From a virus, in the IMG/VR virus record IMGVR_UViG_3300042870_001718, positions 1 to 23,350 of that record: a DNA stretch of 23,350 nt. One strand, given 5' to 3'. This document shows positions 3,358 through 21,885 of the stretch, in pieces (position 1 is the first letter of the stretch; every line of letters begins with the position of its first letter). The position numbers and the translations under genes were made by a program. The notes under the pieces were generated by a model, which saw nothing but the letters and a program-made list of their open reading frames with translations, was not told where the DNA came from and did no database searches.

Positions 3358-3396
3358 GGAACGCCGCAAAAAACACCTATTTTCATCCCTTAAAGT
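3358..3396 (+). promoter_or_regulatory. Candidate late promoter A (capsid operon)
   Basis: GGAACG (3358-3363) followed after exactly 27 bases by TAAAGT (3391-3396). Three other sites in the window have the same box and the same 27-base gap to a -10-like hexamer. With TAAAGT at -10, GGAACG would sit near -45 to -40, and no -35 hexamer is seen in between. This suggests an activator-dependent or phage-specific sigma70 promoter. Predicted start near 3403 leaves a 50-base leader. The core AACAGGAACGCCGC is identical, 14 bases long, at promoter B. Confidence 0.55.
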
Positions 3397-3452
3397 GACT
3401 GTGTAGCGGCACGGTCGTGCGCTCAATTTTTTAAAACTCAATGGAGGTATTT

Positions 3453-5087
3453 ATGGATCGCACGTATCCCGAGCATTTCACTCACTCGCAGTTTATTCAA
3501 AACTTAAACCATGAAAAAGAAGCAAAAAAATCATCAGGCGCAGCATTCGATTCTGCCAGCGCATTGTCTTTGAATATGCCTGAAAAGCTGCGTGAGTTAT
3601 GCCAAACCGTGCCTGATTTTCAAGTGGGTGGTCGGAATTACTCAGGCGAGCAGGCAACAATGGACGCGGTGTCGCGTGGTATTGATGAGTACAAACGTAA
3701 GCACGGCCACGAAGTGCGCGGTGACGTATTAGAAAGCGCCGTTCGCACGACTTTAAACGTCATGACCCAAGATAACCGCGAAAAAGCTGGCTTGCCAGCG
3801 GTTTATGACGATGCACTCACATCTGCGTCGGGTGCGCCAATGCAGGCGAATCGCGCACAAATTGCCATCTTTACCAGCATTGCCAATGCCGTGCCGTTTG
3901 CGGGCTACATTCCCATGTCTGAGGGCTTGCAGGGCAAGTTGATTATTGTGCGCCATGAGGCAGGCACGGCAACGGGCGATTATGCTGTTGGTGACAGCTT
4001 GGATGGTGCAAATTCTGGCGACCCGTTTATGAGCTACAACCGCCGCATCAAGCTAGAAAGTGGTGTGGGCTTATTTAAAGTTGCAAAAGCGGACACAGCT
4101 GGCGCAGCGATTTTTGCAGGTGGCGTTGACGTGTTTGTGAATGGCGTTCCTGCTGGCTCGTCTGTATTAAACACCCGAAACGATGCAGCGTCTGCCCCCT
4201 TGTTCGGTGAAATCAAAATCGGCACAGCTGTGCATAAATTGACGGGCGAGGTGAAGGCAAAAACGGGTGAGATTAAAGCTGAATTTGAGCCTGCTTTACC
4301 AAGCGGCTCAATTGTTGAAGCCAGCGCGATTTTGAATTTTGAGAGCTTTGATGACAAGCGCCCAGAAGTAATTGTGTCCGCAACGTCTTATGACTTCCGC
4401 GCCACATTCATGAGCGGCAATCATTTTGTCACGCAGGAAGCCAAAACACAGTTCCGCGCTGAAGTGAATATGGATGCAACCTCTGAAGCGTTGGCTTCAT
4501 TGCGCAATCAGTCTTCAAATGAGCGTTACCGCGAAGCGTTGCGTGCGATGTATGCGGTTGGTAAAGGCTACATCACCAACTTTAGTTTTGACGCAATTAA
4601 TCGCCAAGCCCAACGCTCGCGCGCTGATGTTTGGTCTGATGTGATTTTCCCAATCGCCGCTGCTGACGCTGATATGGTCACGCGCACGCAAGGTTTTGGT
4701 ATTTCTTGCTTGTACGTCGGGACAAAAGGCAAAGCTGAACTGACATCATTGCCAAGCCACTTGTTTGAACAATCGGGCTTGAAGTCAACCAATGGCATTT
4801 ACCGTTTGGGTCGTTTGTACGGCAAATGGGATGTTTATTACGACGCGGGCAAGATTGTGAACGAAACCACCGATTCAATTGAGATTTTGGCAATCGGCAC
4901 GTCTGACGATGTGGCGCGCAATCCTGTGATTTTTGGTGATGTTGCAAGCCCAATGATTATGCCTTTGGCAACAAACAAGTCGCAAAAAGAGGGCTACGGT
5001 TACTACCAAGCGTTGGCCACAAAAGTCAATCCGCATCAAGACAGCGCACGCGGTGCTGCATTGATTCAATTAACCAACTTTGCTTAA
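3453..5087 (+). CDS. Major capsid protein (myovirus type)
   Basis: A 544-residue protein that I assign to the phage major capsid family used by large contractile-tailed phages. It has an acidic and polar N-terminal region (about 1-120) that may be removed on maturation. A beta-rich middle follows with an inserted domain near 205-300 (repeated Gly/Val strands, GSSVLN, KLTGEVKAKTGEIK). The C-terminal part contains RREALRAMY-like helices (SNERYREALRAMYAVGKGYI) and ends VNPHQDSARGAALIQLTNF. The NPHQ-S-A/G-A ending is one I associate with these capsid proteins. An upstream in-frame ATG exists at 3441, but GGAGG at 3444-3448 serves the ATG at 3453, which is chosen. First gene after candidate late promoter A. 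Unusually, the portal and protease are 7-10 kb downstream, beyond the tail genes. Confidence 0.75.
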   Translation: MDRTYPEHFTHSQFIQNLNHEKEAKKSSGAAFDSASALSLNMPEKLRELCQTVPDFQVGGRNYSGEQATMDAVSRGIDEYKRKHGHEVRGDVLESAVRTTLNVMTQDNREKAGLPAVYDDALTSASGAPMQANRAQIAIFTSIANAVPFAGYIPMSEGLQGKLIIVRHEAGTATGDYAVGDSLDGANSGDPFMSYNRRIKLESGVGLFKVAKADTAGAAIFAGGVDVFVNGVPAGSSVLNTRNDAASAPLFGEIKIGTAVHKLTGEVKAKTGEIKAEFEPALPSGSIVEASAILNFESFDDKRPEVIVSATSYDFRATFMSGNHFVTQEAKTQFRAEVNMDATSEALASLRNQSSNERYREALRAMYAVGKGYITNFSFDAINRQAQRSRADVWSDVIFPIAAADADMVTRTQGFGISCLYVGTKGKAELTSLPSHLFEQSGLKSTNGIYRLGRLYGKWDVYYDAGKIVNETTDSIEILAIGTSDDVARNPVIFGDVASPMIMPLATNKSQKEGYGYYQALATKVNPHQDSARGAALIQLTNFA

Positions 5088-5090
5088 GAA

Positions 5091-5603
5091 ATGGCACGCA
5101 AAGGTTTGGACGCTAAAAGCCTTGAAACCCCACAACTAACTGGGGTTTCTGAGGTGGTCGATAAGTCTGCGACCAGTTTAAGCACATCAACTTCAACGGT
5201 AGAGTCAACGGCGTTGGGCGATTCTGAAAGTTCAGTTGCTTCGTTGAGTACATCAACTTCAACAGGTTTGAGCAATGTTGAAAGTTCAATGGACTCATTA
5301 AGCACGTCAACGTCAACAGTCGATTCAACGGAGTTGAGCGATGTTGATGCGCCAGTTTGGCAATCAAAAGAATGGCTGATTAACAACTACACCGCATCAA
5401 TGATGGCATTTCCTGAGCTTGGCGACCAGCCAGCCTCTAAAGTGGCTGCCCATGCGTCGAGCGTTTCGGTCACGTTTAAATCAAAAGAAATGTATGAGCT
5501 GTTCCTGAGCAATATTGCCCAGCTCGCATTGCTCAATCGCTGGGCTGGTGATTTTGGCGTGTTTTTGACTGAAGCATCTATTAACCCAGTCAAGGAGGAT
5601 TAA
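5091..5603 (+). CDS. Ser/Thr-repeat virion protein of unknown function
   Basis: A 170-residue protein beginning 3 bases after the capsid stop, with no good ribosome site, so it probably depends on coupling with capsid translation. Residues 25-86 are a disordered Ser/Thr-rich region holding three copies of LSTSTST (30-36, 52-58, 70-76), separated by acidic linkers such as VESTALGDSES. Residues about 88-170 form a compact, folded-looking domain starting VWQSKEWLINNYTASMMAFPELGD. The position right after the capsid gene suggests a head decoration, head fibre or head-completion protein, but I do not recognise the family. The repeats could be a flexible tether or a site for surface modification; both are inference. 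Confidence 0.65.
   Translation: MARKGLDAKSLETPQLTGVSEVVDKSATSLSTSTSTVESTALGDSESSVASLSTSTSTGLSNVESSMDSLSTSTSTVDSTELSDVDAPVWQSKEWLINNYTASMMAFPELGDQPASKVAAHASSVSVTFKSKEMYELFLSNIAQLALLNRWAGDFGVFLTEASINPVKED
5178..5318 (+). repeat. Three imperfect coding repeats (LSTSTST units)
   Basis: Three near-identical stretches of the form TTAAGCACATCAACTTCAAC, about 54-66 bases apart, encode the LSTSTST units of the post-capsid protein. Third positions vary between copies (ACATCA/ACGTCA, TCAACT/TCAACG), so the peptide is more conserved than the DNA. Confidence 0.8.
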
Positions 5604-5605
5604 CC

Positions 5606-7200
5606 ATGTCTCAAAATGTTTATCAGCGCCGCTTGGTGGGTCAACAATCGGGGGTTCAAGTCAACATGCCTGTTGATAAAACCGACCGGTTGTTGCCTGA
5701 AGTTGGCGACCAAACCATTGCGGTTGTGGGGCATTTCTCACGCGGACGGATTGACCGACCGTTTTCCTTTCACCTGAAAAGCTGCAACGCTATTTGGGCA
5801 AAGCCAAAAGCATTCGTGCGGACTCACGCAATGAAACGTATTTGCAGGTCTATGAAGCGCTGAAAGCTGGCGCGGCTGGCGCGGTTATCTCTCGCTTGAG
5901 CAGTGATGCTGCGGTTTCAAAATACATTACGTTGAAAAATGATGGCTCAATTTCGGCCACAGAGACGCTTGGGACTGATTATTTGTTGGCCGTTAAGATG
6001 GCCGATGCGATTGATCAGGGCGTTTATGTCACGTTTGCAGCAGGCTCTGAGGATGGCTACGTTCGCGTGACCATTCGCGAGCTGGACAAAAACAGCGCTG
6101 GCGTTGACACCGACGAGGGCTATGTTTTGTACGAGTTTGAGGGTTCGTGCGTGGCTGGTGAGTTGGACGAAAACGGCAACACTGCGTTTATTAACGACAT
6201 GGCGAGCCGCTTTTATGGCGATTGGCTACAAGTTGAGGTGGCGCAAACTATTGATGCAGCGCTGTTCGCTGAAGCGATGTCTAAGCCAAGAAGCGCCGCT
6301 GTGATTGCGTTTGAGGACAAAGGCGCAGTGACGGTTGAGAACAAAACCAAGGCAGTGACGGCTTTGGGGCGCACCAACATCAAGTATCGCTACTTGGTCG
6401 TGGCAACCGCTGACATTGCGATTAACAGTCAAATGATGGCGCTGGCACAAGAGTTTAACCGCAAAATTTTCATTGAAGTTTCAGGAGAATTAAGCCCTGA
6501 AGCGGCGGCGGCATGGATTGCCAATTTCAACTATTCGGCGCAAGGCGGCATGTACTTTGACTTTAACTGGTCACCATTGCGGCGCGATGACCCGTTGGGT
6601 ATTTCGGGCAACGTGATGTTTGGCACGGTTGGGCAAAAAGCGGGCGCGGCATGTGCGCGTAATGCCATTACCAACGGCCACGGCCTTGCCAAATTGAACC
6701 AGCCGATTGCAGGCAAGGATTACTTCATTACGGGCAATCGGATTACGCAAACCTACTTCCCTGATGACACAGAAATGGCGTTGTTGGCCAAGGCGCGCAT
6801 CAATCCTGCGATTCACAGCGAATACCACGATGGCAGCGGTTTTGTTTGGGCGGATTCGTTTTCGGGTGCGAAGAAAAACGGTATCAGCAAACTTGCCAGC
6901 GCGGCTGAAATTGTATTTTGGGCGCAAGACCAATGGGGCAAGTTTGGTAAGTCGTTACTCCAAAAGCCGATGAAAGAGGGCATTCAATTGATGAGCCGTT
7001 TTTCAACGCGCCAGTTGCAAGCAATGGAAGCGTCTGATTGGCTGATTCCATCTGAGCAATTGGGCGGCAAAGCGTGGGCGTTTAGTGTTGCGCCAAACGA
7101 GCGCTATCCTGACGACCGCTTGGATACGATTTTAAAGCTGAGTATTGATGGCGTGATTCGCGTGGTCAACATCTCGACCGAAATGTATTCACGCAATTAA
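5606..7200 (+). CDS. Contractile tail sheath protein, apparent -1 frameshift near 5760
   Basis: The sheath surrounds the tail tube and contracts on infection. A strong AAGGAGG precedes the ATG at 5606. The first frame reads through AVVGHFSRGRIDRPF and then turns to nonsense, stopping at 5863. The frame one base back carries VFLSPEKLQRYLGKAKSIRADSRNETYLQVYEALKAG and continues to 7200. GRGRIDKPF followed by a helix and NEAYVQVYEAL is the continuous pattern I expect in these sheath proteins, so the join lies at about 5759-5768, at the run CCGTTTTCCTTT. Losing one base from a codon such as GTC would explain it. No canonical slippery heptamer is present. The joined protein would be about 530 residues, with typical sheath C-terminal segments (ARINPAIHSEYHDGSGFVW; GVIRVVNISTEMYSRN). 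An essential gene, so a sequencing error, true mutation or recoding are all possible. Confidence 0.75.
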
Positions 7201-7266
7201 AAATGGGCTTTGGCGGCGTGTTGCACGCTGCCAATCTCGAATCAAATCAAACAAAAGGGGAAATGT

Positions 7267-7950
7267 ATGAGTAACTATTTAGACGAACTTCGTCAACGTA
7301 ACAATCCAGCCAAATTGGTGCGCGCCGTATTTGATGGCGACGAGCCTGTGGCGCAAGACGCAGCCTCAAATTTTCAAATCTCAAGCATGCGTTTATCGGT
7401 TGCCGCTGGCGTGGCCGCTTGGGCTGAAACCAGCGAGGACGATTTAGAGGCTGGCGAAAACATGGCTGACCGCATGGATGCGCTGATGGTTGGCGTGTTG
7501 GACATGGACAAAGACGGTGAGCTGGACGATGACGAATTGTCGTTGCTTGACATGATGTACAACGTGCTATCTGAGTTTTTGCTCAAAAAGGGCTGCGAGC
7601 CTGCGGATGTGGACAGATTTATCAATGATGGCGATGAAGACGCTGCGCTGGCAATCCACGAGTTTGTGGCGGGCAGCTTAGCCAACGGTGAAGATGAGGA
7701 GCTGGACGAGTTGCACAGCTTCGCGTTTGACGCTGATTCTGACGCATCTGTGATGGATGCGGCTTATAAAATGAAGTCTGTGGTACGTGGCGGCAAAAAA
7801 ATGCGCGTGCGCAAGCGAATCTCAGGCCGCGTGCGTTTGTCGTCCAAGCAAAAAATGGGCATCAAAAAAATGCTGCGCAAATCACACTCCGCCGCCGCAC
7901 AAATGAGCCGCGCCAAGTCAATGCGCCGCCGCAAATCAATGGGCATGTGA
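7267..7950 (+). CDS. EF-hand virion-operon protein with basic C-terminal tail
   Basis: A 227-residue protein. The ATG at 7267 has an AAAAGGGGAA ribosome site; an upstream in-frame start at 7210 lacks one. Residues 79-90 read DMDKDGELDDDE, a complete EF-hand calcium loop (Asp at 1, 3, 5, Gly at 6, Leu at 8, Glu at 12), flanked by helices (MADRMDALMVGVL before, LSLLDMMYNVLSEFL after). The middle is strongly acidic. From about residue 172 it becomes very basic (GGKKMRVRKRISGRVRLSS ... KSMRRRKSMGM). I recall similar KS(H/M)xxAA.xxRAKSMRxRK tails in virion-operon proteins of other phages, without known function. It sits between sheath and baseplate/tube genes, with its stop only one base before the next ATG. 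Possible roles (inference): tail assembly factor, or a nucleic-acid-binding or calcium-dependent structural protein. Confidence 0.65.
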   Translation: MSNYLDELRQRNNPAKLVRAVFDGDEPVAQDAASNFQISSMRLSVAAGVAAWAETSEDDLEAGENMADRMDALMVGVLDMDKDGELDDDELSLLDMMYNVLSEFLLKKGCEPADVDRFINDGDEDAALAIHEFVAGSLANGEDEELDELHSFAFDADSDASVMDAAYKMKSVVRGGKKMRVRKRISGRVRLSSKQKMGIKKMLRKSHSAAAQMSRAKSMRRRKSMGM

Positions 7951-7951
7951 C

Positions 7952-10729: not shown

Positions 10730-11440
10730 ATGTACTTTCCAAAATTCATCACAACGCGGCTTGAAGTGGAGCTGCAAGAGCTAAAAATCCGCGACATTAT
10801 CGCGCTGTGCGAAATCCCTGCCCACTTAAACGAGGCTGCGATTGGCGCAACGCTGGCGTGCATTGTCAAGTCAAGCAATCTGCCCATTGCGCAATTCACG
10901 CTGCAAGAGCGCTACGCCGTGATTTGTGCCTACGTCACCGCCAAAGAACAGGGCGACTGGATGGCATCAGACAATGGCAAATATTCACAGTTCGTAGGCG
11001 AGATTGACGCGCCGCCTGACGACTACGTGTTTGAGTTTGGCGGTGACACCTTGCGCGTTGTGCCGCTGACCTCCGAATACATTGAAGCGATGGAGCGCGT
11101 GATTTTGAGTGGCGCGGTTGGGGATAATCCAAGCTCAATGCTGTGGTTTATCGCCGCCGCTGCATCTCAGATTCGCGGCGTGGATGATGACGTTGGCAAT
11201 GCAGAAGAGCTTGTAAAAGCACGGTGTTTGCAATTGCAATCGCTAAGCGAGGAGCATTTTTTCGCGCTCATGGATCACTTTTCACGCGGCCTGTTGCACA
11301 TCAACCATTTGTTTAATACTTGGTACGCCGACGACGGCGTGATTGTCCTGCCTCAGGAGGTGGGCGCGGCCAACCCCGCACGATTTCGCTTTGATACCTG
11401 CCTCTCGCAAGGAGCGATTGAGGCTTTCGCAAAACGTTAA
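10730..11440 (+). CDS. Baseplate-hub assembly / tail-chaperone-like protein (upstream frame)
   Basis: A 236-residue protein beginning FPKFITTRLEVELQELKIRDIIALCEIP. It is helical, with FEFGGDTLRVVPLTSEYIEAMERVIL in the middle, a long helical stretch from about 135 to 195, and TWYADDGVIVLPQEVGAANPARFRFD near the end. The overall pattern resembles T4 gp26/gp51-type baseplate hub assembly proteins (T4_baseplate family), a weak recognition. The frame ends at the TAA at 11438-11440, while a second frame with good coding character overlaps and continues to 11663. Such overlapping pairs just before a tape measure gene are typical of tail assembly chaperones that use a frameshift. AAGG precedes the ATG at 10730. 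Confidence 0.45.
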   Translation: MYFPKFITTRLEVELQELKIRDIIALCEIPAHLNEAAIGATLACIVKSSNLPIAQFTLQERYAVICAYVTAKEQGDWMASDNGKYSQFVGEIDAPPDDYVFEFGGDTLRVVPLTSEYIEAMERVILSGAVGDNPSSMLWFIAAAASQIRGVDDDVGNAEELVKARCLQLQSLSEEHFFALMDHFSRGLLHINHLFNTWYADDGVIVLPQEVGAANPARFRFDTCLSQGAIEAFAKR

Positions 11441-11663
11441 AGAGCTGGCCGAAACCATTTGTATTGTGCGCGGCTTGGATTTGAGTCAATGCGAACAATT
11501 AACCGTGTCCCGTGCCGACGACTTTGTGGACGGCAAAGCATGGGCGGCGGCACAAAAGCGCGAAGAAGACCTAATCGCAGCGCAGTTTGACAGCATCAAA
11601 GCCACACTAAAAACAATGTCAGGTGGATTCAACGCCATTGTTAAAACGTTGGCGGGGCGGTAG
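11418..11663 (+). CDS. Downstream frame of the chaperone-like pair
   Basis: About 80 residues (LRLSQNVKELAETICIVRGLDLSQCEQL...) rich in helix, ending NAIVKTLAGR. The frame is +1 (equivalently -2) relative to the upstream gene and overlaps it by 23 bases from the TTG at 11418. The frame remains open further upstream to 11343, but that part translates to Arg/Pro-rich nonsense antagonistic to the upstream gene. Two ways to make it: initiation at TTG 11418 behind AAGGAG (11409-11414, a short 3-base spacer), or a programmed frameshift near the upstream stop, giving a fused protein of about 315 residues. No classical slippery heptamer is seen. Function is inferred only from position. Confidence 0.5.
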   Translation: MRLSQNVKELAETICIVRGLDLSQCEQLTVSRADDFVDGKAWAAAQKREEDLIAAQFDSIKATLKTMSGGFNAIVKTLAGR

Positions 11664-11764: not shown

Positions 11765-11803
11765 GGAACGCCGCCCAAGCACCCGCCAATTTCACCGCAT
11801 AAT
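11765..11803 (+). promoter_or_regulatory. Candidate late promoter B (portal operon)
   Basis: GGAACG (11765-11770), 27 bases, CATAAT (11798-11803). Same spacing as sites A, C and D. Predicted start near 11810, leaving about 20 bases before the portal ATG at 11830. The 14-base core AACAGGAACGCCGC is shared with site A. Confidence 0.55.
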
Positions 11804-11829
11804 TAACCCACTTAAAATTGGGTCAAATT

Positions 11830-13362
11830 ATGCCAACACTCTCTTCAATCCTTGACTCCAAAGGTCAACCCATCTCATACCCCAGCGCCGCTGAAATTCA
11901 GTCCGCTGGGTATTCGTCCAATACGGGCATTGATTCCGTATCCATCTCGCAGGTGCTTGCGTCGTTTGAGATGCCAAACCGTGCGCGTTGGGAAGTTTAT
12001 AAACAATACTTGTTCATGATGAGCGACCCGATTATTTCAGCGGCGCTCAATTTGCACGTGACCCAGTCATTGGGTGGACACGAAACCACGGGTGAGGTGA
12101 TTTTTATTGAGGCCAAGCCAACGGCGGATGCAAAAGAGAAAAAAATTGTGACCGAAATCAACGCGACGCTGGCCAGTAAAATCAACAACATCGCGTACCA
12201 CATGGGCTTTATGGGTACGGGCATGGGCGATGCGTATGCGCGTCTCTATGGCAAAAAAGGCGTTGGGATTACCAATATTGACACGTCCGAGTTCTATTTG
12301 CCGCCGTTGGTGCAGGCGTTTGAAAAGGGCGGTCAAACCGTGGGTTATGAAGTGAGCGTGGACAACCGCGATTTAATCCCGCTCACGGTGATGCAGATTG
12401 CACGGCTCAAAATGCCGCGCATGTTGTTTGTGCCGCAACCGCGCGCGCAGTACAACCATTGGAAACAGGCGGTGGCCGAAGATGATTTTGACGCGCTGCC
12501 CAATCTGCCTGCGCTGGTGGGCGGCTCGTTTTTAGAATCCGCTGAAAAGCCATTTTTCTTGTTGCAGGCGGCATTAACTGGGTTGAGTTCGAGCCGTATT
12601 TTGGATTCGGTGCGTGAGTCGATGTTTGGCGTGAACATGCAAGACATGACGACTGACCAGCAAAAGGAGTTTTTTACCCGCGTCTCAACCATGCTGACCA
12701 ACTCGAAGAAGCGAACCGCTGACGCAATCAAAAACCGTGAACCCGTGGTTGAAAAGGTATTTCACCTTATTCCAACTTGGCGCGAAAAGCAGCTGTATTC
12801 GATTGATCAAGGCGGCTCAACATCGGGCAGCGGCAATGCCCAAAGCTACAGCACCGAGGACGTGATGTTTTATGCAAAGCTCCTCGCAGGCGCATTGGGG
12901 CTGGATTTGTCGATGCTTGGATTTTCTGAAATTTTATCGGGCGGTTTGGGCGATGGCGGATTTTTCCGCGTGTCCGCGCAGTCCGCGCACCGTGCGCGCA
13001 TGCTGCGCCAAGCCATGACGGGTTTTGTGAACCACGTGATTGACGTGCATTGTCAATACAAATACGGCGGCGTGTATGCCGAAGCTGACCGCCCGTACAC
13101 CGTGAATTTTGTGGGTTCAAGCACCGCGCAAGACCGCGAGCAGCAAGAAGTGCAAGAGCGCAAGATGATGTCCACCGCCACGATGGTGCAGGTGATGCAG
13201 CAAATGAAAGACTTGGGTTTAAAGCCTGAGATTGCCACGCACCTGTTTAAAGAGCAAATGGCAATGGACGAAGACGATGCGGCGCTGTACGGCGGCATGT
13301 TCACAGGTGAGCCAGCCGCAGATGGTGTTGAGGGTGCGCCTGATGCCGCACAAGATGAATAA
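11830..13362 (+). CDS. Portal protein
   Basis: A 510-residue protein, the size of a myovirus portal, forming the dodecameric DNA channel at one capsid vertex. Typical features: an N-terminal region around EMPNRARWEVYKQYLFMMSDPIISAALNLHV (the 'state of the cell, non-adjacent samples' helix of portals), MGTGMGDAYARLYG, a central wing, helical stem region with RESMFGVN and PVVEKVFHLIPTW, then LAGALGLDLSMLGFSE..GGLGDGGFFRVSAQSAHRARMLRQAM, which I associate with gp20-like portals. The C-terminus is acidic. A TTG at 11818 is in frame, but the ATG at 11830 fits the leader length seen at the other late promoters; its ribosome site is weak. It is followed by the protease-scaffold gene, the usual partner. 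Confidence 0.75.
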   Translation: MPTLSSILDSKGQPISYPSAAEIQSAGYSSNTGIDSVSISQVLASFEMPNRARWEVYKQYLFMMSDPIISAALNLHVTQSLGGHETTGEVIFIEAKPTADAKEKKIVTEINATLASKINNIAYHMGFMGTGMGDAYARLYGKKGVGITNIDTSEFYLPPLVQAFEKGGQTVGYEVSVDNRDLIPLTVMQIARLKMPRMLFVPQPRAQYNHWKQAVAEDDFDALPNLPALVGGSFLESAEKPFFLLQAALTGLSSSRILDSVRESMFGVNMQDMTTDQQKEFFTRVSTMLTNSKKRTADAIKNREPVVEKVFHLIPTWREKQLYSIDQGGSTSGSGNAQSYSTEDVMFYAKLLAGALGLDLSMLGFSEILSGGLGDGGFFRVSAQSAHRARMLRQAMTGFVNHVIDVHCQYKYGGVYAEADRPYTVNFVGSSTAQDREQQEVQERKMMSTATMVQVMQQMKDLGLKPEIATHLFKEQMAMDEDDAALYGGMFTGEPAADGVEGAPDAAQDE

Positions 13363-14283: not shown

Positions 14284-17115
14284 ATGGCACTCAAGCACGA
14301 CAAAGACGGTTTTTTGGTAGGGCGCGGCGGCAAGGATGTGTTGCAGATTATTCACGACAACACCAAAGACATTCTTGCGCAAATCCACGGAAAAATCAAA
14401 CCGCCCACCAACCCACAACCACGCCTAAAAATTGGCGTGCAGATTGCCAATTCAGCACCAAAACCACGCGCACCCAAAGCACCCAGCGCATCGTTTGGTT
14501 TAAAAAATCGCGATGCACAAGGCCAGTTTGTAAATGCAAACAGCAACCCCACGCGCCTGCCCGCTGCAACCGTTAAACAAAACAAAGTCACCTCAGACGC
14601 AGCCGTGGAGGCAAAAAAAAGCAACAAAGAACAGATAAAACTGCTCAAACGGATTGCCAACAAGGGCAGCTCAGGCGACTCCACCAGTAAGTCACCAAAA
14701 ATCCCCGATGTTTTTGGGGGTGGTAAGGGCAAAATGGCGCGCTTTTTTGGGCGCACAGGTCGCGCACTCAAAGGCGCTGGCGGCAAGTTGCTTGGCGGCG
14801 CGGCCTTGGCCAAGCTGGGCGGATTTTTTGGGCGTGGCGGTTCAAAAGGTGGGCTGGATGGTGCGGCCGCCAAAGCAGGCGGCATTGGCGGCAAACTGCT
14901 TGATGGCCTTAAAGGTATTGGCGGCGGCGCACGAGCGGCGGGCGGGCTTTTAAAACGCATCCCACTACTTGGCGCAGCCATCACAGGTCTGTTTGCCCTA
15001 AGCGATATGGACACCATCAACAAAGACAGCTCACTCACGGACGAACAAAAATCCACCAAAAAAGCTGGTGTGACTGGTGGTGCGGCTGGCGCATTGGGCG
15101 GCATGGCAGCTGGCGCGGCAATCGGCACAATGATATTCCCCGGTGTAGGCACAGTCATTGGCGGCATCATCGGCGGGATTGGCGGCGAAAAAATCGGCAA
15201 AACCGTGGGCGAATGGCTGTACAAGCGCGACTGGAAAAGCGCGTGGGACAACACCCGCAGCGCCCTAAGCTCAGGCTGGTCGTGGATGACCATCAGCATT
15301 AAAGGCTTTGCGGACACCGCATGGACGAGCTTTACCGCCGCATGGAAAACAACCACGGACGGCATCACCCTAAAATTCACCGAAATCAAAGAGGCGTTTT
15401 TAGCCAAAGCAACCAGCTTTTTTGACGGCGTAAAAAACGCATGGGATGCAGCCAAGGAGCTGGTCACAGGCGGCGACCCGCCAACACCATCAGGAGACAC
15501 ACCGCCAGCAGGCGGCGGCGATTCACCCGCGCCACAAGCGCCACAAGGTACGGTTACGCGCAATAAAACGTTTGACGAAAAAATGAGAGACGGAAAAAAG
15601 TCTGGCGAAGTCCGCGACCAATTGGTTGTTGAAAAGGGGCGATTGCTTGCAAAAAAAGCAAAAGACGCGATTCCTTACGGTTGGTTTGGCGGGTATAAAG
15701 ACAAAGCTGATTCTGACGCATCAATTAAAAAGACCGCCGACAAAATCGCCACATTAGAAGAGGCACACAAAGTCCTTTATGCGGAAGCGATGAAAGAAAC
15801 GACAACCGCCCCGCCTGAGGGGGGCAGTAAAACGCTTCTTGGTAAAGCAGTGGATAAATTAACGCCTAAGGTCGAAGCTTTAGGGGGCAAAATAAGCGCA
15901 GTGGTTGGAGGCAAGGGCGGGGGCGGTTATTCGCCAACCAGCGCAACCGTTGGCGCAGTTGGTGGTGAACTCATGCCGTTTTTGAGTGCCTTAAAAAAAA
16001 TTAATGAACAATGTGTTTCACTGGTCAAAGCCGCAACCAAAAACAACGCATCTACCAGCGAATGGCGCAGGGGTGTATCAGCGGCAGATGGTACGCTGGT
16101 AAAAGGGCAGGGGATTGCCACGTTCTTGGATCGTAAATTTAATCAGTCAAATAAATACGATGAGGGAAAAGGCGGGCAAGAGGGAAAGAACAAAGACCAC
16201 GCAATGATTTTTGACAGCTATGTAAAAGACGCGGTCGGGAAAATCGTTGGACTCGTGGCTTATGAGACCTACCGTGGCTCGGGCGGCGTTAAGAAAAAAA
16301 CCTACATGTTCGGCCAAGGCGTAGGTGAAAAAAACGCGTCAAATTACGCCGCCATCAATGTGGGCGGCAACCCGCTTGCAATGGGTGCGGTAACTGACGG
16401 CGGCAATGGCGGGGCGCAGACTGCGTCTTATAGTACAAAAGGCGTTGACCCAAACAAAGCTGCAAGGGTTGAGGCGCTGAACGCACAAAATAATTTGCCA
16501 ACAGGTATGCTGGCAGGTGTTTGGGAGCAAGAGACCAAAAGCGGCAGGGATGTACGAAACTCACCAAAAGGTGCAAAAGGTCATTTTCAGTTCATGCCGG
16601 CAACTGCTGCTGACATGGGAATTGCGGGCAAAGAAAATGATTTTAACGCGGCCTCCGAAGCCGCTGCTAAATATTTAAGCCAGCTTTATAAAATGTTTGG
16701 TGGCGATGTAAATAAAACCTTGGCTGCTTATAATTGGGGTTCAGGGAACGTTTCAAAAAAAGGGTTGGGGAATGCGCCAAGAGAAACAAGAAATTATATG
16801 CGCGATATTGGTTCGTTTATGCAAAACCGTGCAGGCAAGATTGCCTCGGCAAGTCCACCACCTATCCTAACCGCCATAAAAGCCCCAACAGTACCAACGA
16901 TGCCCGCATTCAAAGCGCCCGATTATGCCATCCCCACCTTTGTTGCGGCCAACACGAGCGGCGGCACGAATGGCAAGGGCGGCAAAGGCGGCGGCGCTGA
17001 CGGCTTCGATTACTCAGGCGCAAGCAATGTCGCCTTGGCACAAATACCCGTGTCGCAGCGCGTCAGTAATGACAGAATAGCGTGGACGGCTGGCGGTGGA
17101 ATTGGGATGGGGTGA
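14284..17115 (+). CDS. Tape-measure-like virion protein with amidase and lytic transglycosylase domains
   Basis: A 943-residue protein. Residues 140-310 hold a Gly/Ala-rich hydrophobic stretch (GGAAGALGGMAAGAAIGTMIFPGVGTVIGGIIGG), as in tail tape measures that insert in the membrane. Pro/Gly linkers (about 395-420 and 540-560) separate the enzymatic parts. At 574-660, NEQCVSLVKA (Cys577), TSEWRRGV, GQGIATFLD and KDHAMIF (His639) resemble the BPSL0067/CHAP-like cysteine amidases. At 727-840, LAGVWEQETKSG (probable catalytic Glu750), GAKGHFQFMPATA (763-775) and AAYNWGSGNV form a soluble-lytic-transglycosylase domain. The C-terminus is Gly-rich. Together these would open peptidoglycan during DNA injection. 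Tape length cannot be checked against tail length here. It follows the protease gene by 50 bases. Confidence 0.75.
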   Translation: MALKHDKDGFLVGRGGKDVLQIIHDNTKDILAQIHGKIKPPTNPQPRLKIGVQIANSAPKPRAPKAPSASFGLKNRDAQGQFVNANSNPTRLPAATVKQNKVTSDAAVEAKKSNKEQIKLLKRIANKGSSGDSTSKSPKIPDVFGGGKGKMARFFGRTGRALKGAGGKLLGGAALAKLGGFFGRGGSKGGLDGAAAKAGGIGGKLLDGLKGIGGGARAAGGLLKRIPLLGAAITGLFALSDMDTINKDSSLTDEQKSTKKAGVTGGAAGALGGMAAGAAIGTMIFPGVGTVIGGIIGGIGGEKIGKTVGEWLYKRDWKSAWDNTRSALSSGWSWMTISIKGFADTAWTSFTAAWKTTTDGITLKFTEIKEAFLAKATSFFDGVKNAWDAAKELVTGGDPPTPSGDTPPAGGGDSPAPQAPQGTVTRNKTFDEKMRDGKKSGEVRDQLVVEKGRLLAKKAKDAIPYGWFGGYKDKADSDASIKKTADKIATLEEAHKVLYAEAMKETTTAPPEGGSKTLLGKAVDKLTPKVEALGGKISAVVGGKGGGGYSPTSATVGAVGGELMPFLSALKKINEQCVSLVKAATKNNASTSEWRRGVSAADGTLVKGQGIATFLDRKFNQSNKYDEGKGGQEGKNKDHAMIFDSYVKDAVGKIVGLVAYETYRGSGGVKKKTYMFGQGVGEKNASNYAAINVGGNPLAMGAVTDGGNGGAQTASYSTKGVDPNKAARVEALNAQNNLPTGMLAGVWEQETKSGRDVRNSPKGAKGHFQFMPATAADMGIAGKENDFNAASEAAAKYLSQLYKMFGGDVNKTLAAYNWGSGNVSKKGLGNAPRETRNYMRDIGSFMQNRAGKIASASPPPILTAIKAPTVPTMPAFKAPDYAIPTFVAANTSGGTNGKGGKGGGADGFDYSGASNVALAQIPVSQRVSNDRIAWTAGGGIGMG

Positions 17116-17131
17116 TTTAAAGCCTTGCGCA

Positions 17132-17780: not shown

Positions 17781-17888
17781 ATGGTGAGTATGGATTGGGA
17801 TGGGGTAATTTGTTTGAGCGCAAAAACCATGGTCTTGGTGTTAGCATTAACTTGTCGGTTGTAGTCAACGCATGATTTTGCATGAGCG

Positions 17889-17919
17889 TTGACACAAAGA
17901 GCAAATAATGAGGTAATAT
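17889..17919 (+). promoter_or_regulatory. Promoter of the lipoprotein-adhesin pair
   Basis: TTGACA (17889-17894, perfect -35), a 19-base spacer and TAATAT (17914-17919). The spacer is slightly long. Predicted start is about 60 bases before the lipoprotein ATG. The 109 bases from the terminator to this promoter contain no gene that I can see. Confidence 0.6.
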
Positions 17920-17989
17920 TGCGAACTTTTAGTGGCATCATTGGGATTTGGCGATACATTTAGTTAAATATTTACACATAAGGGTTAAG

Positions 17990-18760
17990 ATGAAAAGAAT
18001 AGTAGGGGTTGTTTGTTTATCAATTATGGCAGCTGTGAGCCTGCCAGCATGTTCAAAAAAAGAGCAAAAAACAGAGGTGGCCGCACCTGTTGTTAAGCAA
18101 AAAGAAGAGCTGATTAAAGATTTTGCCGCTGTTTGGAGTACAAGCGATGAAACGGTAACTATTGATTACTCAAACAATCAGGTTTTAATGTTGGTTGGTG
18201 ATGAGCGTATTGACTTAACGTTGGGTGATTCTGACGTGCAAAACGAGACAGTGAATTTACTTAACGCGTCAGGCGAAATCACAACGCTAAGGAAGAATTG
18301 GAACGCGGATAAAACCGCTTACCAGTTGAGTCTTACAAACCCAAAAGGTAACAGAATGTTGTTGGGGTTCGTTCGGAAAATAACCAATGATGACAAAAAT
18401 CGAATTGCGAGCCTCGCCAATAAGCAGGCTCAGGTAGATGCACAAAAGGCAAATGAAGTTATTGAGGCAGATAAGCAGGCTTTGGCAGCAGGTCAAAACG
18501 CTTACAATGAAGCAAGGGTTCAAAACAAATCTGCGAGGACTGAGTTGAACGAGCTTTGGAATGGCTTGGATGAGGAGATTAAAAATGCCTTGATCACGGA
18601 ACAACGTCAGTGGGTTTTGCGGAAGAAAAAAGAGTGCGGCGAACCCAACAAGAGTACTAAGGTATCGTTTAGCGCAGAAGAATTTGAATCAGCTACTGAA
18701 AGCCTAGAGTGTGACACCAATATGACGAATGGTAGAATTTCTGAAATAAAAGGAGAATAA
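17990..18760 (+). CDS. Lipoprotein with LprI-type (DUF1311) lysozyme-inhibitor domain
   Basis: A 256-residue protein. The ATG at 17990 with AAGGG upstream is chosen over 17948 because it gives a clean lipoprotein signal (MKRIVGVVCLSIMAAVSLPAC, lipobox LPAC with Cys21). Residues 45-135 form a beta-rich domain of unknown type; 140-185 is a long Gln/Ala/Lys helix. Residues about 185-256 match the LprI family: LNELWNGLDEEIKNALITEQRQWVLRKKKEC with Trp208, Cys216, and LEC with Cys241, the conserved AQRxWxxxRxxxC pattern. LprI-type proteins can inhibit lysozyme at the cell surface. Inference: a prophage moron protecting the host from external lysozyme, or the phage's own virion transglycosylase. It is translationally coupled to the next gene, which starts 2 bases later. 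Confidence 0.7.
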   Translation: MKRIVGVVCLSIMAAVSLPACSKKEQKTEVAAPVVKQKEELIKDFAAVWSTSDETVTIDYSNNQVLMLVGDERIDLTLGDSDVQNETVNLLNASGEITTLRKNWNADKTAYQLSLTNPKGNRMLLGFVRKITNDDKNRIASLANKQAQVDAQKANEVIEADKQALAAGQNAYNEARVQNKSARTELNELWNGLDEEIKNALITEQRQWVLRKKKECGEPNKSTKVSFSAEEFESATESLECDTNMTNGRISEIKGE

Positions 18761-18761
18761 C

Positions 18762-19151
18762 ATGTCCTTTAAGTATTTAGCCACGCTGTTGTTGGCTTTC
18801 GTATCTTTTAACTCATTCGCCAACGATAGTGATAATGAGCGCTGGATGCATGTTAGCGAGTCAAGCAGTACGTTTATTTATTTAGACAAAAAGACATTGA
18901 CTGACACCTCGTTTTGGGTAAAACATTTGGTTAAGCCGGAAAAGATAGCTACGGCAAAGAAAAAAAGTACGATGGTGCATTATTCTTATAATTGCGAAAA
19001 ACGAATGTTAGGAGAACAGTCTTCCGTAGTTACAACTCTAACTGGAGGCACAGTAAGCTCGGAAGGTAAGGGGGGGCTTTATTTGGTCATACCCGATTCT
19101 ATTGGCGAGGATATTCTTGACGCTGCGTGTGAGGCTTATTCCAATAGGTGA
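18762..19151 (+). CDS. Secreted surface-adhesin-E-like protein
   Basis: A 129-residue protein with AAAGGAG inside the end of the previous gene. Residues 1-20 (MSFKYLATLLLAFVSFNSFA) form a signal peptide. The mature part starts NDSDNERWMHVSESSSTFIYLDKKTL, then a strand with WVKHLVK, HYSYNCEKRM (a Cys near 80) and VIPDSIGEDILDAAC. W..v..s....YlD..tl, a central Cys and a P.S...IL...C ending are typical of the surface-adhesin protein E family (PF16747). The two cysteines probably form a disulphide in the periplasm or at the surface. Whether it truly binds host tissue is not known from sequence. It forms a two-gene operon with the LprI-like lipoprotein. Confidence 0.6.
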   Translation: MSFKYLATLLLAFVSFNSFANDSDNERWMHVSESSSTFIYLDKKTLTDTSFWVKHLVKPEKIATAKKKSTMVHYSYNCEKRMLGEQSSVVTTLTGGTVSSEGKGGLYLVIPDSIGEDILDAACEAYSNR

Positions 19152-19189
19152 TTTAACTCGCAGGTAGATGTTGATAATATTCGATGATA

Positions 19190-19251
19190 TTGGTATTGTT
19201 GTAAAAAATTTTATTGTACAAAAGTAAAAACCCCGCGCGTGCGGGGTTTTT
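19190..19251 (+). repeat. Direct repeat, copy 2: orphan DUF2335 3' end plus terminator
   Basis: Repeats 17720-17780. It translates as GIVVKNFIVQK and a stop codon, with no upstream DUF2335 coding sequence, so it is a remnant rather than a gene. Differences from copy 1 include RK to QK, one extra A and a changed hairpin loop (GCGT instead of GATT). Confidence 0.9.
19226..19251. terminator. Bidirectional terminator between convergent operons
   Basis: AAAAACCCCGC (19226-19236) pairs with GCGGGGTTTTT (19241-19251) around GCGT. The A tract on the left and the T tract on the right make it work in both directions. It closes the + strand adhesin operon and the - strand antirepressor gene, whose stop codon is at 19260-19262. 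Confidence 0.9.
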
Positions 19252-19259
19252 GCAAGGGT

Positions 19260-20012
19260 TTAAGCCACCAACCACTTGGGCATGTCATTGTGTACCATGC
19301 CCAATGCGTCAATGCCGCTGGTGAGTTGTCGTGCCATGTTCCACAGGTTGATTGCCGCCTTGCGTGGTACAAGCATCATGCCGTCAGGGACTTTGAATGT
19401 GGCGGGTTGAGACTGTGGCAATGCAACGGGTGCATGCGCCCAGTCGTCAGGGTTTAATCCGATGGGGTCAGCTTTGAAGTATGCACAGGATTTTGCGTAT
19501 GACTGCGGCGTGAGGTTGTCCAGCCTGTTAAAACCATTTGCTTCTTGTACGGCTGTCCATACTTTTTGAAAGTGCAACCCTGTTTTTGATACGCGGTCGC
19601 TTACCAATGATTTTAAGTGTTGCTTTTGGGCGGGGGTTGCGAGCTGGGTTTGTTGCGCCGCAACTTTTGGCATGAAGTGGTTAAAAAGCACGTCGAAGCA
19701 TTCGGTTTGGTATTGAATCAACGTGTCGCGGATTTCGGGACGCACGCGGTTTGAGTCTACGCCGAATAACCAGCCGTTCAATACGGATAATGGCAAAGCC
19801 AAAACTTCGCGTGACTTACCGTCTTGGGCAACTGCCTTTATCATACAGGCGGTTGCACTCAAGACTGGGTGGCGGGCGATTCGTTGGCGTTGTGCCTCCC
19901 AATCAAGGCCGATGTTTTCGACGATTGAGCGCATTGCTACGTATGGCTTTTCGTTGTGATTTAAAACAGTGATTGATTGTTCGTGAAATTGAACTGTTGA
20001 TAATTCAGACAT
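19260..20012 (-). CDS. ant: Phage antirepressor with P22_AR_N domain
   Basis: A 250-residue protein. The start at 20012 has AAGGAG seven bases away. Residues about 5-125 match the P22 antirepressor N-terminal domain: VQFHEQSITVLNHNEKPYVAMRSIVENIGLDWEAQRQRIARHPVLS, LALPLSVLNGWLFGVDSNRVRPEIRDTLIQYQTECFDVLFNHF. The C-terminal half (LKSLVSDRVSKTGLHFQKVWTAVQEANGFNRLDNL) resembles the C-terminal parts of related antirepressors. Such proteins bind and inactivate phage repressors, promoting induction. A C4-type RNA and its target lie immediately upstream on the same strand, as in P1 and P7 immI, but no icd-like gene lies between C4 and this gene. The repressor it would attack is not in this window. 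Confidence 0.8.
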   Translation of the reverse strand: MSELSTVQFHEQSITVLNHNEKPYVAMRSIVENIGLDWEAQRQRIARHPVLSATACMIKAVAQDGKSREVLALPLSVLNGWLFGVDSNRVRPEIRDTLIQYQTECFDVLFNHFMPKVAAQQTQLATPAQKQHLKSLVSDRVSKTGLHFQKVWTAVQEANGFNRLDNLTPQSYAKSCAYFKADPIGLNPDDWAHAPVALPQSQPATFKVPDGMMLVPRKAAINLWNMARQLTSGIDALGMVHNDMPKWLVA

Positions 20013-20019
20013 GGTCTTA

Positions 20020-20060
20020 CTCCTTCAGGTGAGATTTTCAATGTACCCCTGTTCATGGGG
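20020..20060 (-). promoter_or_regulatory. Antirepressor ribosome-binding region and C4 target
   Basis: On the - strand, CCUGAAG (20023-20029) overlaps the AAGGAG ribosome site and is perfectly complementary to the CUUCAGG in the C4 hairpin loop (20083-20089). Upstream, a CCCC/GGGG hairpin (20046-20049 with 20057-20060) presents UGAACA (20050-20055) in its loop, complementary to UGUUCA of C4 (20074-20079). Base pairing at both points would block translation of the antirepressor. Confidence 0.6.
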
Positions 20061-20062
20061 GC

Positions 20063-20142
20063 GGTCGAGCACTTGAACACAGCCTGAAGACTGCTAACGG
20101 CGTTTACCTTTCGGCTATTGCATTACCGTTCACTACTCGACC
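20063..20142 (-). ncRNA. c4: C4-type antisense RNA
   Basis: An 80-base RNA bounded by a perfect 7-base outer stem (GGTCGAG with CTCGACC). It then shows a TGAAC/GTTCA stem, an arm with CGGTAATGCAATAGCCG and AAAGGTAAACGCCG, and a hairpin GCAG/CUGU displaying UCUUCAGG. The overall sequence and the position directly upstream of an antirepressor match my memory of the C4 antisense RNA family of phages P1, P7 and relatives. There C4 is cut from the same transcript and blocks the antirepressor ribosome site. The loop complementarity described at 20023-20029 supports the same mechanism here. The 302 bases between antirepressor and the next gene (20013-20314) hold this RNA, its promoter, a partial inverted copy and a terminator. 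Confidence 0.75.
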
Positions 20143-20220
20143 ATTGAAAAATCATCAACCAACCAAGGGGAACGATTTTGTATGGACGAAAAAAAAGCAC
20201 AGTTTGCGGATGTGAGACCG

Positions 20221-20242
20221 CTTCAGGATTCGTGTGTTCAAG
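20221..20242. repeat. Inverted partial copy of the C4 interaction segment (target mimic)
   Basis: CTTCAGG (20221-20227) and TGTGTTCAAG (20233-20242) are exact inverted copies of 20083-20089 and 20072-20081 within C4. On the - strand transcript they read CUUGAACACA..CCUGAAG, that is, complementary to C4 and like the antirepressor target. Placed 5-26 bases after the predicted start of the C4 transcript. Confidence 0.7.
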
Positions 20243-20253
20243 CACTTGGCGCA

Positions 20254-20282
20254 ATCATAACCCCGTTTCAAAAAGAAATCAA
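20254..20282 (-). promoter_or_regulatory. Promoter of the C4-antirepressor transcript
   Basis: On the - strand: TTGATT (20282-20277), a 17-base spacer and TATGAT (20259-20254). The -10 is 5 of 6 to consensus and the -35 4 of 6. Predicted start is near 20247, just before the C4-target mimic. Confidence 0.6.
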
Positions 20283-20288
20283 ATTAAA

Positions 20289-20311
20289 AAAACCACCGTG
20301 ATGGTGGTTTT
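20289..20311. terminator. Terminator of the membrane-protein operon
   Basis: AAAACCACC (20289-20297) pairs with GGTGGTTTT (20303-20311) around GTGAT. On the - strand it lies 3 bases after the stop of the gene at 20315 and ends in a T7 run. It insulates that operon from the C4 promoter directly downstream. It could also work for a + strand transcript. Confidence 0.85.
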
Positions 20312-20314
20312 GTT

Positions 20315-20713
20315 TTATTCCGTGTCCGCTCGTTCGTTACTTTTACTTTTTGCCTTACCTGCCAAGTATCCTGCAATCAGGCCACCTCCAATTTTCGCAA
20401 GGTCTCCAGCCAATATTGCTTGCCCCATATAAACAAGCCCAAGAATCCCAAAAATGGATAATGCGCCAAGCCATAAGTGCCAACGTAGGTTTTTCTCGTG
20501 ACCTTTGAGCATCATTTCGCGCGTTTCTCTGCGGTCTTGAGCGTGCAAGTCCATTGCTTTCATGGATTGCTCATGGTTCAGGCTCAACTCTTGCGTGCGT
20601 GTATCAAGCTCGCGCTGTCGGACTTCAAGCTCTCGTGTTTGGTTTGCTATAAATGATTCTGCTATCGCGTGAGAGTCCCTGTTTGTTGACTCTCCAACCC
20701 CTGTGCCGCTCAT
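20315..20713 (-). CDS. Coiled-coil membrane protein, unknown function
   Basis: A 132-residue protein. Residues 18-75 form a charged heptad-like helix (NQTRELEVRQRELDTRTQELSLNHEQSMKAMDLHAQDRRETRE). Two hydrophobic segments follow (about 79-99 and 105-119), then a basic, polar tail (KAKSKSNERADTE). No signal peptide. This layout (long helix then membrane hairpin) is like that of the DUF2335 protein at 17359, but the sequences are not obviously related. Its ATG overlaps the preceding gene's TGA (ATGA at 20713-20710), indicating coupled translation. Possible roles include superinfection exclusion or anchoring of a cytoplasmic sensor; neither is supported by a recognised domain. Confidence 0.7.
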   Translation of the reverse strand: MSGTGVGESTNRDSHAIAESFIANQTRELEVRQRELDTRTQELSLNHEQSMKAMDLHAQDRRETREMMLKGHEKNLRWHLWLGALSIFGILGLVYMGQAILAGDLAKIGGGLIAGYLAGKAKSKSNERADTE

Positions 20714-20898
20714 TTCATGCCCACCAAAACAGGGGTTTTAAATTTAACCTGAACGTGTCCAAAATTTCTAGACCCAATTGTTGGCGGTACGAATCGGGAT
20801 GATTCGATATTTTCTTTTTGCTTGTCCGTTAAAGCCACAAACTCTTCGGGCTTCATGGATTTTGTAGACGTTGGCATAAAAAGATCTTGATGTGACAT
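20710..20898 (-). CDS. Small accessory protein, unknown function
   Basis: A 62-residue protein starting at the ATG at 20898, with AAGGAG seven bases upstream; a longer frame from 20961 has no ribosome site. The sequence MSHQDLFMPTSTKSMKPEEF is followed by a predicted helix (VALTDKQKENIESSRF) and a C-terminal, basic strand region (HVQVKFKTPVLVG). There is no membrane segment. First gene of a two-gene operon driven by the promoter at 21019-20991 and possibly controlled by the palindrome at 20949-20981. I do not recognise it. Confidence 0.6.
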   Translation of the reverse strand: MSHQDLFMPTSTKSMKPEEFVALTDKQKENIESSRFVPPTIGSRNFGHVQVKFKTPVLVGMK

Positions 20899-20948
20899 GT
20901 CTTTCTCCTTGATTAAACATGAATTGCTTGCTTTCACATTGTGAAAAT

Positions 20949-20981
20949 AGACCGATTTCAAGTGTGCCTCGAAATCAGTCT
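20949..20981. promoter_or_regulatory. Operator-like palindrome at the start site of the - strand operon
   Basis: AGACCGATTTC (20949-20959) and GAAATCAGTCT (20971-20981) are 11-base inverted arms with one mismatch and an 11-base centre. It begins about 10 bases after the -10 hexamer, at the predicted transcription start, a usual place for a repressor operator. A half-site, GACTGATTTC, also occurs at 14239-14248 before the tape-measure gene. Confidence 0.6.
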
Positions 20982-20990
20982 GTTGCGTAA

Positions 20991-21019
20991 ATTATGAGGC
21001 AAACCATTCGCGATGTCAA
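20991..21019 (-). promoter_or_regulatory. Sigma70 promoter of the - strand membrane operon
   Basis: On the - strand: TTGACA (21019-21014, perfect -35), 17-base spacer, CATAAT (20996-20991, 5 of 6). It points at the gene starting at 20898. The expected start lies at about 20984, touching the palindrome at 20949-20981. Confidence 0.7.
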
Positions 21020-21057
21020 ACATCATTGACATAATTGATACAAAACCCGCCTTTATC

Positions 21058-21096
21058 GGAACGTCCACCAATCGCCCGCCGTGCGCCCATTACAAT
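21058..21096 (+). promoter_or_regulatory. Candidate late promoter C
   Basis: GGAACG (21058-21063), 27 bases, TACAAT (21091-21096). Predicted start near 21103, 23 bases before the ATG at 21126. The leader TTAAGGTGCGG before that ATG resembles AAAAAGGATGCGG at site D. It overlaps no gene, but transcription from it runs antisense through the gene at 21148-21507 towards the gp25-like gene. Confidence 0.5.
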
Positions 21097-21125
21097 CACG
21101 CATCAATCATTTTTAAGGTGCGGTT

Positions 21126-21422
21126 ATGTGGAACAAAACGTTAAATACTATTGGCGGGTGGCTGGTTTGGGCGGGGTACGTCCTGCTAAATCGTCAGCCG
21201 CGAGGGATTGCGAAAAAATATGTAGGAGGGCTTGTTGTGCAGCCATTGTTACTTTCATCGCTCGCCAACCTAAGTTGTTTCTCAGACCTATATGAAACGG
21301 GAATTGAATATGTAGCACACCCGTTTCCTCGTTTTTTGAGCCTTGAATCGGAACATCAACTGTCACAATCTCTAGCATCGACTGTGGTTCAGTGGACACG
21401 ATACCCGCCAGAAGCAGAATAA
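21126..21422 (+). CDS. Doubtful + strand reading frame behind promoter C
   Basis: A 98-residue frame with ATG at 21126, AAGG nine bases upstream and a correctly spaced late-promoter motif. The first 22 residues (MWNKTLNTIGGWLVWAGYVLLN) could be a membrane helix. From 21148 on, the frame is antisense to a - strand gene that has better coding character. It may be a real small gene, or only the start of a gene whose remainder was replaced by the - strand gene. Confidence 0.25.
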   Translation: MWNKTLNTIGGWLVWAGYVLLNRQPRGIAKKYVGGLVVQPLLLSSLANLSCFSDLYETGIEYVAHPFPRFLSLESEHQLSQSLASTVVQWTRYPPEAE

Positions 21423-21507
21423 CTTCTTGTTTGAGATTACTCAGCTCATCTGAACTTAAATGCGGCAATTGGCTTTTGATGATGTTGATTGGCGTGTTGT
21501 TACTCAT
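21148..21507 (-). CDS. Accessory protein, unknown function
   Basis: A 119-residue protein starting at the ATG at 21507 behind AAGGGAG; the frame is open further up to 21597 without a ribosome site. It begins MSNNTPINIIKSQLPHLSSDELSNLKQEVILLLAGI (two helices), followed by a beta-rich part (IVTVDVPIQGSKNEETGVLHIQFPFHIG) and a helix with AMKVTMAAQQALLHIF, ending TPPKPATRQ. No signal peptide, no membrane segment, no recognised domain. It lies alone between promoter C and the gp25-like gene, facing against the virion genes, and I see no clear own promoter. Confidence 0.55.
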   Translation of the reverse strand: MSNNTPINIIKSQLPHLSSDELSNLKQEVILLLAGIVSTEPQSMLEIVTVDVPIQGSKNEETGVLHIQFPFHIGLRNNLGWRAMKVTMAAQQALLHIFSQSLAADDLAGRTPPKPATRQ

Positions 21508-21539
21508 AAAGTCTCCCTTGAAACTTAGGATTTTACCCC

Positions 21540-21830
21540 ATGCAAACCGTCTTAAATTCAGCGTTTTTAATGAATCAAATCCGCCATTGGCTGGCAACGC
21601 CGACCAATTCGTACCTTGGTTCGGGCTATGGGATTGACATTAAGTCATACCTGCACAAACCCATGTCCACCTTTGACGGCGATGCGATTATTGACAAGCT
21701 GCGCCGCGACATTCCTGCGTTGGGGGCTTTGCCGCGCACGGTGGTGAATATTTATTTTGAAAACCAAGGCTTGGACGGCAAGTTGATGCACATTGCGGTG
21801 GGTGACAATGTCTTTAGCGTGGCCGCTTGA
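21540..21830 (+). CDS. Baseplate wedge gp25-like protein
   Basis: A 96-residue protein of the size and type of gp25-like baseplate wedge subunits, which join the baseplate to the sheath. The key stretch is WLATPTNSYLGSGYGIDIKSYLHKPMSTFDGDAIIDKLRRDIPAL, with the L.TP.....G..YG.D...L.. start of that family; the end is VVNIYFENQGLDGKLMHIAVGDNVFSV. The ATG at 21540 is used; MNQIRHW at 21570 is an alternative start. It lies just after the accessory island and before the gp6-like gene, the expected order. No separate promoter is visible immediately upstream; transcription from promoter C would reach it. Confidence 0.65.
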   Translation: MQTVLNSAFLMNQIRHWLATPTNSYLGSGYGIDIKSYLHKPMSTFDGDAIIDKLRRDIPALGALPRTVVNIYFENQGLDGKLMHIAVGDNVFSVAA

Positions 21831-21846
21831 GTGCGTGCTTGAAATA

Positions 21847-21885
21847 GGAACGTTGGCGCGGTTGCGGGTTTAAGCGCTTTAAAAT
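21847..21885 (+). promoter_or_regulatory. Candidate late promoter D (baseplate wedge operon)
   Basis: GGAACG (21847-21852), 27 bases, TAAAAT (21880-21885), the best -10 of the four sites. Predicted start near 21892, 18 bases before the wedge-protein ATG at 21910. It lies in the 79-base gap after the gp25-like gene. Confidence 0.55.

Follow-up and report, generated by a model that had tools for sequence, protein, structure and literature searches.

We analyzed a 23.35-kb viral DNA fragment from IMG/VR (record IMGVR_UViG_3300042870_001718, positions 1 to 23,350; this whole stretch is referred to as the window) and found four sites at which the hexamer GGAACG lies exactly 27 bases 5' of a sigma70-like -10 element. 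The four paired sites are real, and we consider it likely that they serve a P1-like phage as late promoters, in which a GGAA box would be bound by an activator, most likely an XRE-type helix-turn-helix (HTH) protein, and hairpins would insulate the transcription units. In the proposed mechanism, RNA polymerase of the host, carrying the housekeeping sigma factor, would use a weak -10 element without a -35 element, and the activator, on a box that has a GGAA core and begins 33 to 36 bp 5' of the -10 element (about -45 to -48), would recruit or position the polymerase. Every late block (capsid, portal, bplA, hdf, and others) would carry its own copy of the promoter. The gene content marks the window as a piece of a P1-like myophage, as P1-type portal, capsid, sheath, and bplA genes are present and their families cluster with those of P1.

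Paired sites in the window and in related genomes

All four sites and the genes behind them are on the forward strand. The predicted activator box at 3358 to 3363 and the -10 element TAAAGT at 3391 to 3396 precede the major capsid protein gene (P1-type, phrog_1014; 3441 to 5087, likely ATG at 3453), whose orthologue in Xanthomonas phage Rb1 is annotated as major capsid protein. The portal protein gene (11818 to 13362, likely ATG at 11830) is preceded by a predicted box at 11765 to 11770 and the -10 element CATAAT at 11798 to 11803. At the third site, a predicted box at 21058 to 21063 and TACAAT at 21091 to 21096 lie 5' of a 98-amino-acid open reading frame (ORF) at 21126 to 21422, and at the fourth, a predicted box at 21847 to 21852 and TAAAAT at 21880 to 21885 lie 5' of a bplA-type baseplate wedge gene (21910 to 23337). 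An earlier note on this DNA had named these downstream genes from the sequence, and family matches confirmed them; the 98-amino-acid ORF has no family or database match. The distance from the end of the -10 element to the ATG is 26 nt for portal, 29 nt for the 98-amino-acid ORF, and 24 nt for bplA. All four -10 elements are intergenic, and only 9% of the window is intergenic.

GGAACG by itself is not overrepresented in the window (8 copies versus 11.5 expected), whereas a -10 element at N27 was found in 4 of its 7 forward copies versus 0.10 expected; therefore, the signal lies in the pairing and not in the hexamer. None of 300 dinucleotide shuffles of the window reached four pairs at any single spacing between 5 and 45, and the exact spacing claimed in the earlier note was upheld. 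Of the refuting conditions named in that note, matches equally common inside genes or in shuffled sequence and a lack of conservation in relatives were both contradicted, since such matches are few and relatives keep the sites. The remaining copies (forward at 16745, 18300, and 20169; reverse at 4145-4150) have no -10 element at 27 bases, as had been stated for the forward copies. The same is true of the reported lack of a -35 element, since the best -35 matches at the four sites score 1 to 3 of 6; the -10 elements themselves are weak and lack a TGn extension. The consensus TANAAT proposed at the time was slightly too strict, being met exactly by two of the four sites; the letters constant in the wider set of sites are A-11 and T-7.

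The closest relative that we found is a prophage of Hydromonas duriensis, with 81% portal identity to the window. Its contigs C22 (G001) and C18 (HydC18) appear to be pieces of one P1-like prophage, because their gene contents are complementary. Another close relative, G004 (80.6 kb), has a portal identity of 55%. In an unbiased hexamer-by-spacing scan of the window, G001, G002, and G004, GGAACG-N27 ranked first of 135,168 pairs, with a -10 element at 19 of 33 copies (log10 p of -24), a count whose members are not all independent since some G002 and G004 sites are homologous. Late-strand copies of GGAACG with a -10 element at N27 number nine in G004 and four in G002, and G004 on its own gives 9 of 15 versus 0.3 expected.

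Orthologous boxes precede the capsid gene (GGAACC at G001 10966, GGAACG at G004 45165), the portal gene (GGAACT at G001 22448, GGAACG at G004 60354), and bplA (G001 25188, G002 12593, and G004 54156), so that relatives retain the sites. Because the G001 boxes, all at N27, read GGAACC (capsid), GGAACT (portal), and GGAACG (bplA), the sixth base is variable and the core is GGAAC. The G004 site at 23036 has an orthologue in Hydromonas C18, GGAACG-N27-GATAAT, which lies 5' of hdf. Across the relatives, the capsid, portal, bplA, and hdf genes each keep their promoter despite changed gene order, the window having portal before bplA and G004 having bplA before portal. Scans of viral contigs with baseplate, sheath, and HTH proteins as queries returned no new relatives, and a portal search of 300 genomes from the order of Hydromonas returned 3 matches, Hydromonas among them. 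A further GGAACG-N27-TATATT was observed directly 5' of the Hydromonas prophage integrase gene (L181, 190-228), where it may be a promoter, an att-associated element, or a chance occurrence.

Full P1-like genomes were then scanned one by one, and the results support the same architecture in about ten further genomes, each lineage having its own box and spacing. GGAAAA was found at spacing 29 in G003 and more weakly in Rb1, and at spacing 30 in Burkholderia vietnamiensis pBVIE05; GGAAAG at 29 in Pseudomonas psychrotolerans; GGAATA at 27 in Acinetobacter WCHA55; TGGAAC at 29 in ABMM1; and AGGAAT at 29 in A. defluvii. CGCAAA occurs at spacing 30 in P. atacamensis and P. putida, and GCAAAC at 29, which is the equal position, in P. 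fluorescens. Across Pseudomonas, Burkholderia, Xanthomonas, and Acinetobacter, the box in P1-like phage-plasmids is GGAAA, GGAAT, or CGCAAA. The same scan gave no such pair in P1 and nothing clear in Vibrio plasmids. When sites of G003, P. psychrotolerans, and G004 were aligned on the box only, A and T emerged at the -10 positions; they were less distinct in two AT-rich Acinetobacter genomes. Matching promoters precede capsid in 9 genomes, hdf in 9, and portal in 7. The class anticipated by the earlier note is wider than written, GGAACG being one lineage's form of a GGAA box. Its proposal of a distinct late-promoter class with a box near -45 to -40 and no -35 element is supported by spacing, orientation, intergenic position, conservation between orthologues, and recurrence.

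A candidate activator in place of Lpa

P1 has several dispersed late promoters, with a sigma70 -10 element and no -35 element, that are activated by Lpa (gp10); one lies 5' of the portal gene, and the activator gene lies beside the terminase genes (PMC10695390, PMC8201110). P1 late genes additionally require host SspA (PMC8201110). The sites described here are alike in their P1-like virion genes, dispersed late promoters, -10 element without a -35 element, portal promoter, and activator (here a candidate) beside the terminase. However, the P1 box is a 9-bp AAGTKACTT-like sequence (the Lpa box at -22) that ends 4 nt 5' of the -10 element, in contrast to a GGAA core 33 to 36 bp 5' of it. The P1-type box was not found in the window (4 to 8 mismatches at the four sites) by a scan that finds 6 in P1 and 4 in JK004. 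No Lpa homologue was detected in G001, G002, G004, G003, or the other GGAA-box genomes, the window being a fragment. The P1 system was therefore ruled out for the window sites.

In these phages we identified an XRE-type HTH protein of 215 to 250 amino acids, unrelated to Lpa, that matches XRE-type families only and whose HTH part matches phrog_7396 (function unknown). It is encoded in each of the 13 complete genomes examined from outside the enterobacteria and Vibrio, and also in Hydromonas; five of the 13 (P. putida, P. fluorescens, A. defluvii, A. oleivorans, and A. soli) had not been used in finding the family, and none of the 13 encodes Lpa. Conversely, the HTH protein is encoded in none of six genomes that all have Lpa (P1, JK004, D6, and Pantoea, Enterobacter, and E. 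coli P1-like genomes). In a systematic family search, it was the sole evident DNA-binding, nonstructural family with this distribution. Its gene lies directly 5' of terS-terL in Hydromonas, pBVIE05, and G003, an order resembling lpa-LPpac-pacA of P1, and farther from the terminase in Acinetobacter genomes; in G003, a GGAA site lies between the HTH gene and terS. On these observations, the HTH protein is the best candidate for an activator that, encoded 5' of the terminase, would replace enterobacterial Lpa and its -22 box, a plausible assignment drawn from correlation and inference. The small DNA-binding late activator gene envisaged in the earlier note thus has a concrete candidate, which would bind the box.

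Other candidates were set aside. The P22_AR_N antirepressor was ruled out as an Lpa relative, as it is not group-wide and Lpa belongs to a Pfam family of its own. A 157-amino-acid protein common to the first 8 genomes was taken as structural, being co-oriented with late structural genes in others. A single-sequence structure prediction for the HTH protein had a pLDDT of 43 and was discarded.

Several points weigh against our reading of the sites and their activator. The mutual exclusion of the HTH protein and Lpa is confounded by host phylogeny. The HTH gene is absent from the window and G002 fragments, and in the window's closest relative it sits on another contig. A. soli and A. oleivorans carry the HTH protein but give only a weak box signal. 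Of 15 records, 13 had a higher count at the chosen spacing than at any of about 48 control spacings; HydC18 (two sites) and A. defluvii (counted at spacing 30, its own being 29) did not, and in the distant genomes these counts are post hoc because box and spacing were picked from the scans themselves.

We regard it as unlikely, although a serious alternative, that the promoter class is real and the activator is another phage protein or an SspA-type, RNA-polymerase-bound host factor, with the HTH protein doing something else, such as repressing early genes. XRE proteins are frequently repressors, several unnamed families have an equal distribution, and the SspA requirement of P1 offers a precedent. 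However, the others that share it are either structural or, by position or sequence, not DNA binding, a separate LexA/CI-like XRE repressor is already present on the opposite strand in 11 of the 13 genomes, and the terminase-side position of the HTH gene parallels that of lpa. Three Vibrio P1-like plasmids (W17, W18, and W19) carry neither Lpa nor the HTH family and have no clear box, and they may have a third late-control system.

Hairpins at the -10 element

A potential hairpin adjoins each of the four -10 elements on the forward strand. That of the capsid promoter (3395 to 3418) has a 9-bp stem beginning at the end of the -10 element, and that of the bplA promoter (21884 to 21911) has a 10-bp stem extending into the start codon. 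The hairpins of the portal promoter (ACCCA/TGGGT, 11806 to 11823), also present in the G001 and G004 portal promoters, and of the third site (CGCATC/GGTGCG, 21099 to 21122) lie right below the -10 element. With a stem of at least 6 bp and a 5' arm starting no more than 2 nt from the -10 end as the definition of register, 21 of 60 intergenic sites have a hairpin in register, compared with 3.7 in shuffles (maximum, 7). In AT-rich phages, a U-tract often comes after the hairpin and precedes the ATG. Transcription is expected to start about 7 nt below a -10 element, so the promoter's own RNA, beginning inside the 5' arm, would lack most of that arm and could not fold the hairpin. We therefore infer an insulated unit, in which the hairpin probably terminates only transcripts arriving from upstream and is transparent to the promoter's own, so that late blocks would be insulated.

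The frequency of such terminator-like hairpins also invites an explanation at the RNA level, in which box and hairpin form a regulated leader terminator or antitermination signal, and what looks like a -10 hexamer belongs to a bidirectional terminator as its A-tract. This is very unlikely in our view, because the -10 spacing stays fixed while the hairpin start shifts (0 at many sites, -8 at G004 63777 and 73828, and +10 at G001 10966), the hairpin is missing at some sites, and box-only alignment retains A-11 and T-7 in phages that are GC rich and lack U-tracts.

Other promoter types and the late switch of P1-like phages

GGAAC resembles the classic -35 element of extracytoplasmic function (ECF) sigma factors, and the box could in principle be such an element. 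The letters are common to both, but the partner here is a sigma70-like -10 element at N27 to N31, nothing is conserved 15 to 18 bp past GGAAC, where the second ECF element would lie, and no Sigma70_r2 domain is encoded in 14 genomes (13 of the GGAA group and P1). An ECF or phage sigma factor was thus ruled out, and we consider this explanation highly improbable. Matches to a sigma70 -35 element are below random, with at least 5 of 6 in 0 of 61 sites. Still more remote is chance pairing of common hexamers: -10-like hexamers occur about every 67 bases and GGAACG is not enriched, but the first rank in the scan, the shuffles, the recurrence in independent genomes, and the orthologous sites in relatives refute it.

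At the C/Mor promoters of Mu, an activator near -40 to -50 substitutes for -35 recognition. The sites described here are similar in the proposed activator position and differ in the box, and the candidate matches XRE-type families only. P2-type Ogr/Delta systems share a small phage activator (here a candidate) and dispersed late promoters, but the Ogr-type TGT-N12-ACA dyad (near -55) is absent 5' of every window site. By membership, as judged from these comparisons, the window sites are not P1 Lpa, Ogr-type, or ECF promoters; by function, they most likely work like other activator-dependent phage late promoters.

Several further features were observed. In the window, the tail sheath gene (5606-7200) is broken over two overlapping frames, the G001 sheath being a single ORF, and a phrog_6830 gene (10730-11663) is broken likewise; sequencing error, decay, and frameshifting are candidate causes. 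A cargo-like region contains an Rfam sRNA-Xcc1 match (20055-20142, reverse strand, 64.7 bits), a family known from integron cassettes, together with a P22_AR_N antirepressor (19260-20012, reverse strand) and an Adhesin_E-like gene. Among relatives, an Ideonella P1-like prophage has annotated diversity-generating retroelement genes (avd and reverse transcriptase; L046, 34798-38197), and in the P. atacamensis plasmid the annotation of the large terminase gene is that of a 764-amino-acid Hint-domain (intein-like) protein (L043, 10122-12398).

P1 is a textbook phage, and in the literature searched, which mostly left subscription titles outside its scope, we found no description of such GGAA-box promoters or of another late switch in much of its kin. 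Non-enterobacterial P1 relatives appear to switch on their virion genes through a previously undescribed promoter type. We hold it an evenly balanced proposition that two late-control systems, Lpa with a -22 box in enterobacterial phages and the XRE-HTH protein with a GGAA box near -45 elsewhere, have been swapped wholesale, with the genes under their control staying the same, with box and spacing coevolving by lineage and many promoters embedded in terminators that insulate the blocks. With these results, late promoters could be mapped by prediction across a large group of phage-plasmids, most of whose genes carry a hypothetical annotation, and a candidate master activator, the phrog_7396-like protein, can be named. 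The sites would also represent a case of regulatory rewiring in which a regulon of about ten promoters changed its activator, box, and geometry and kept its target genes.

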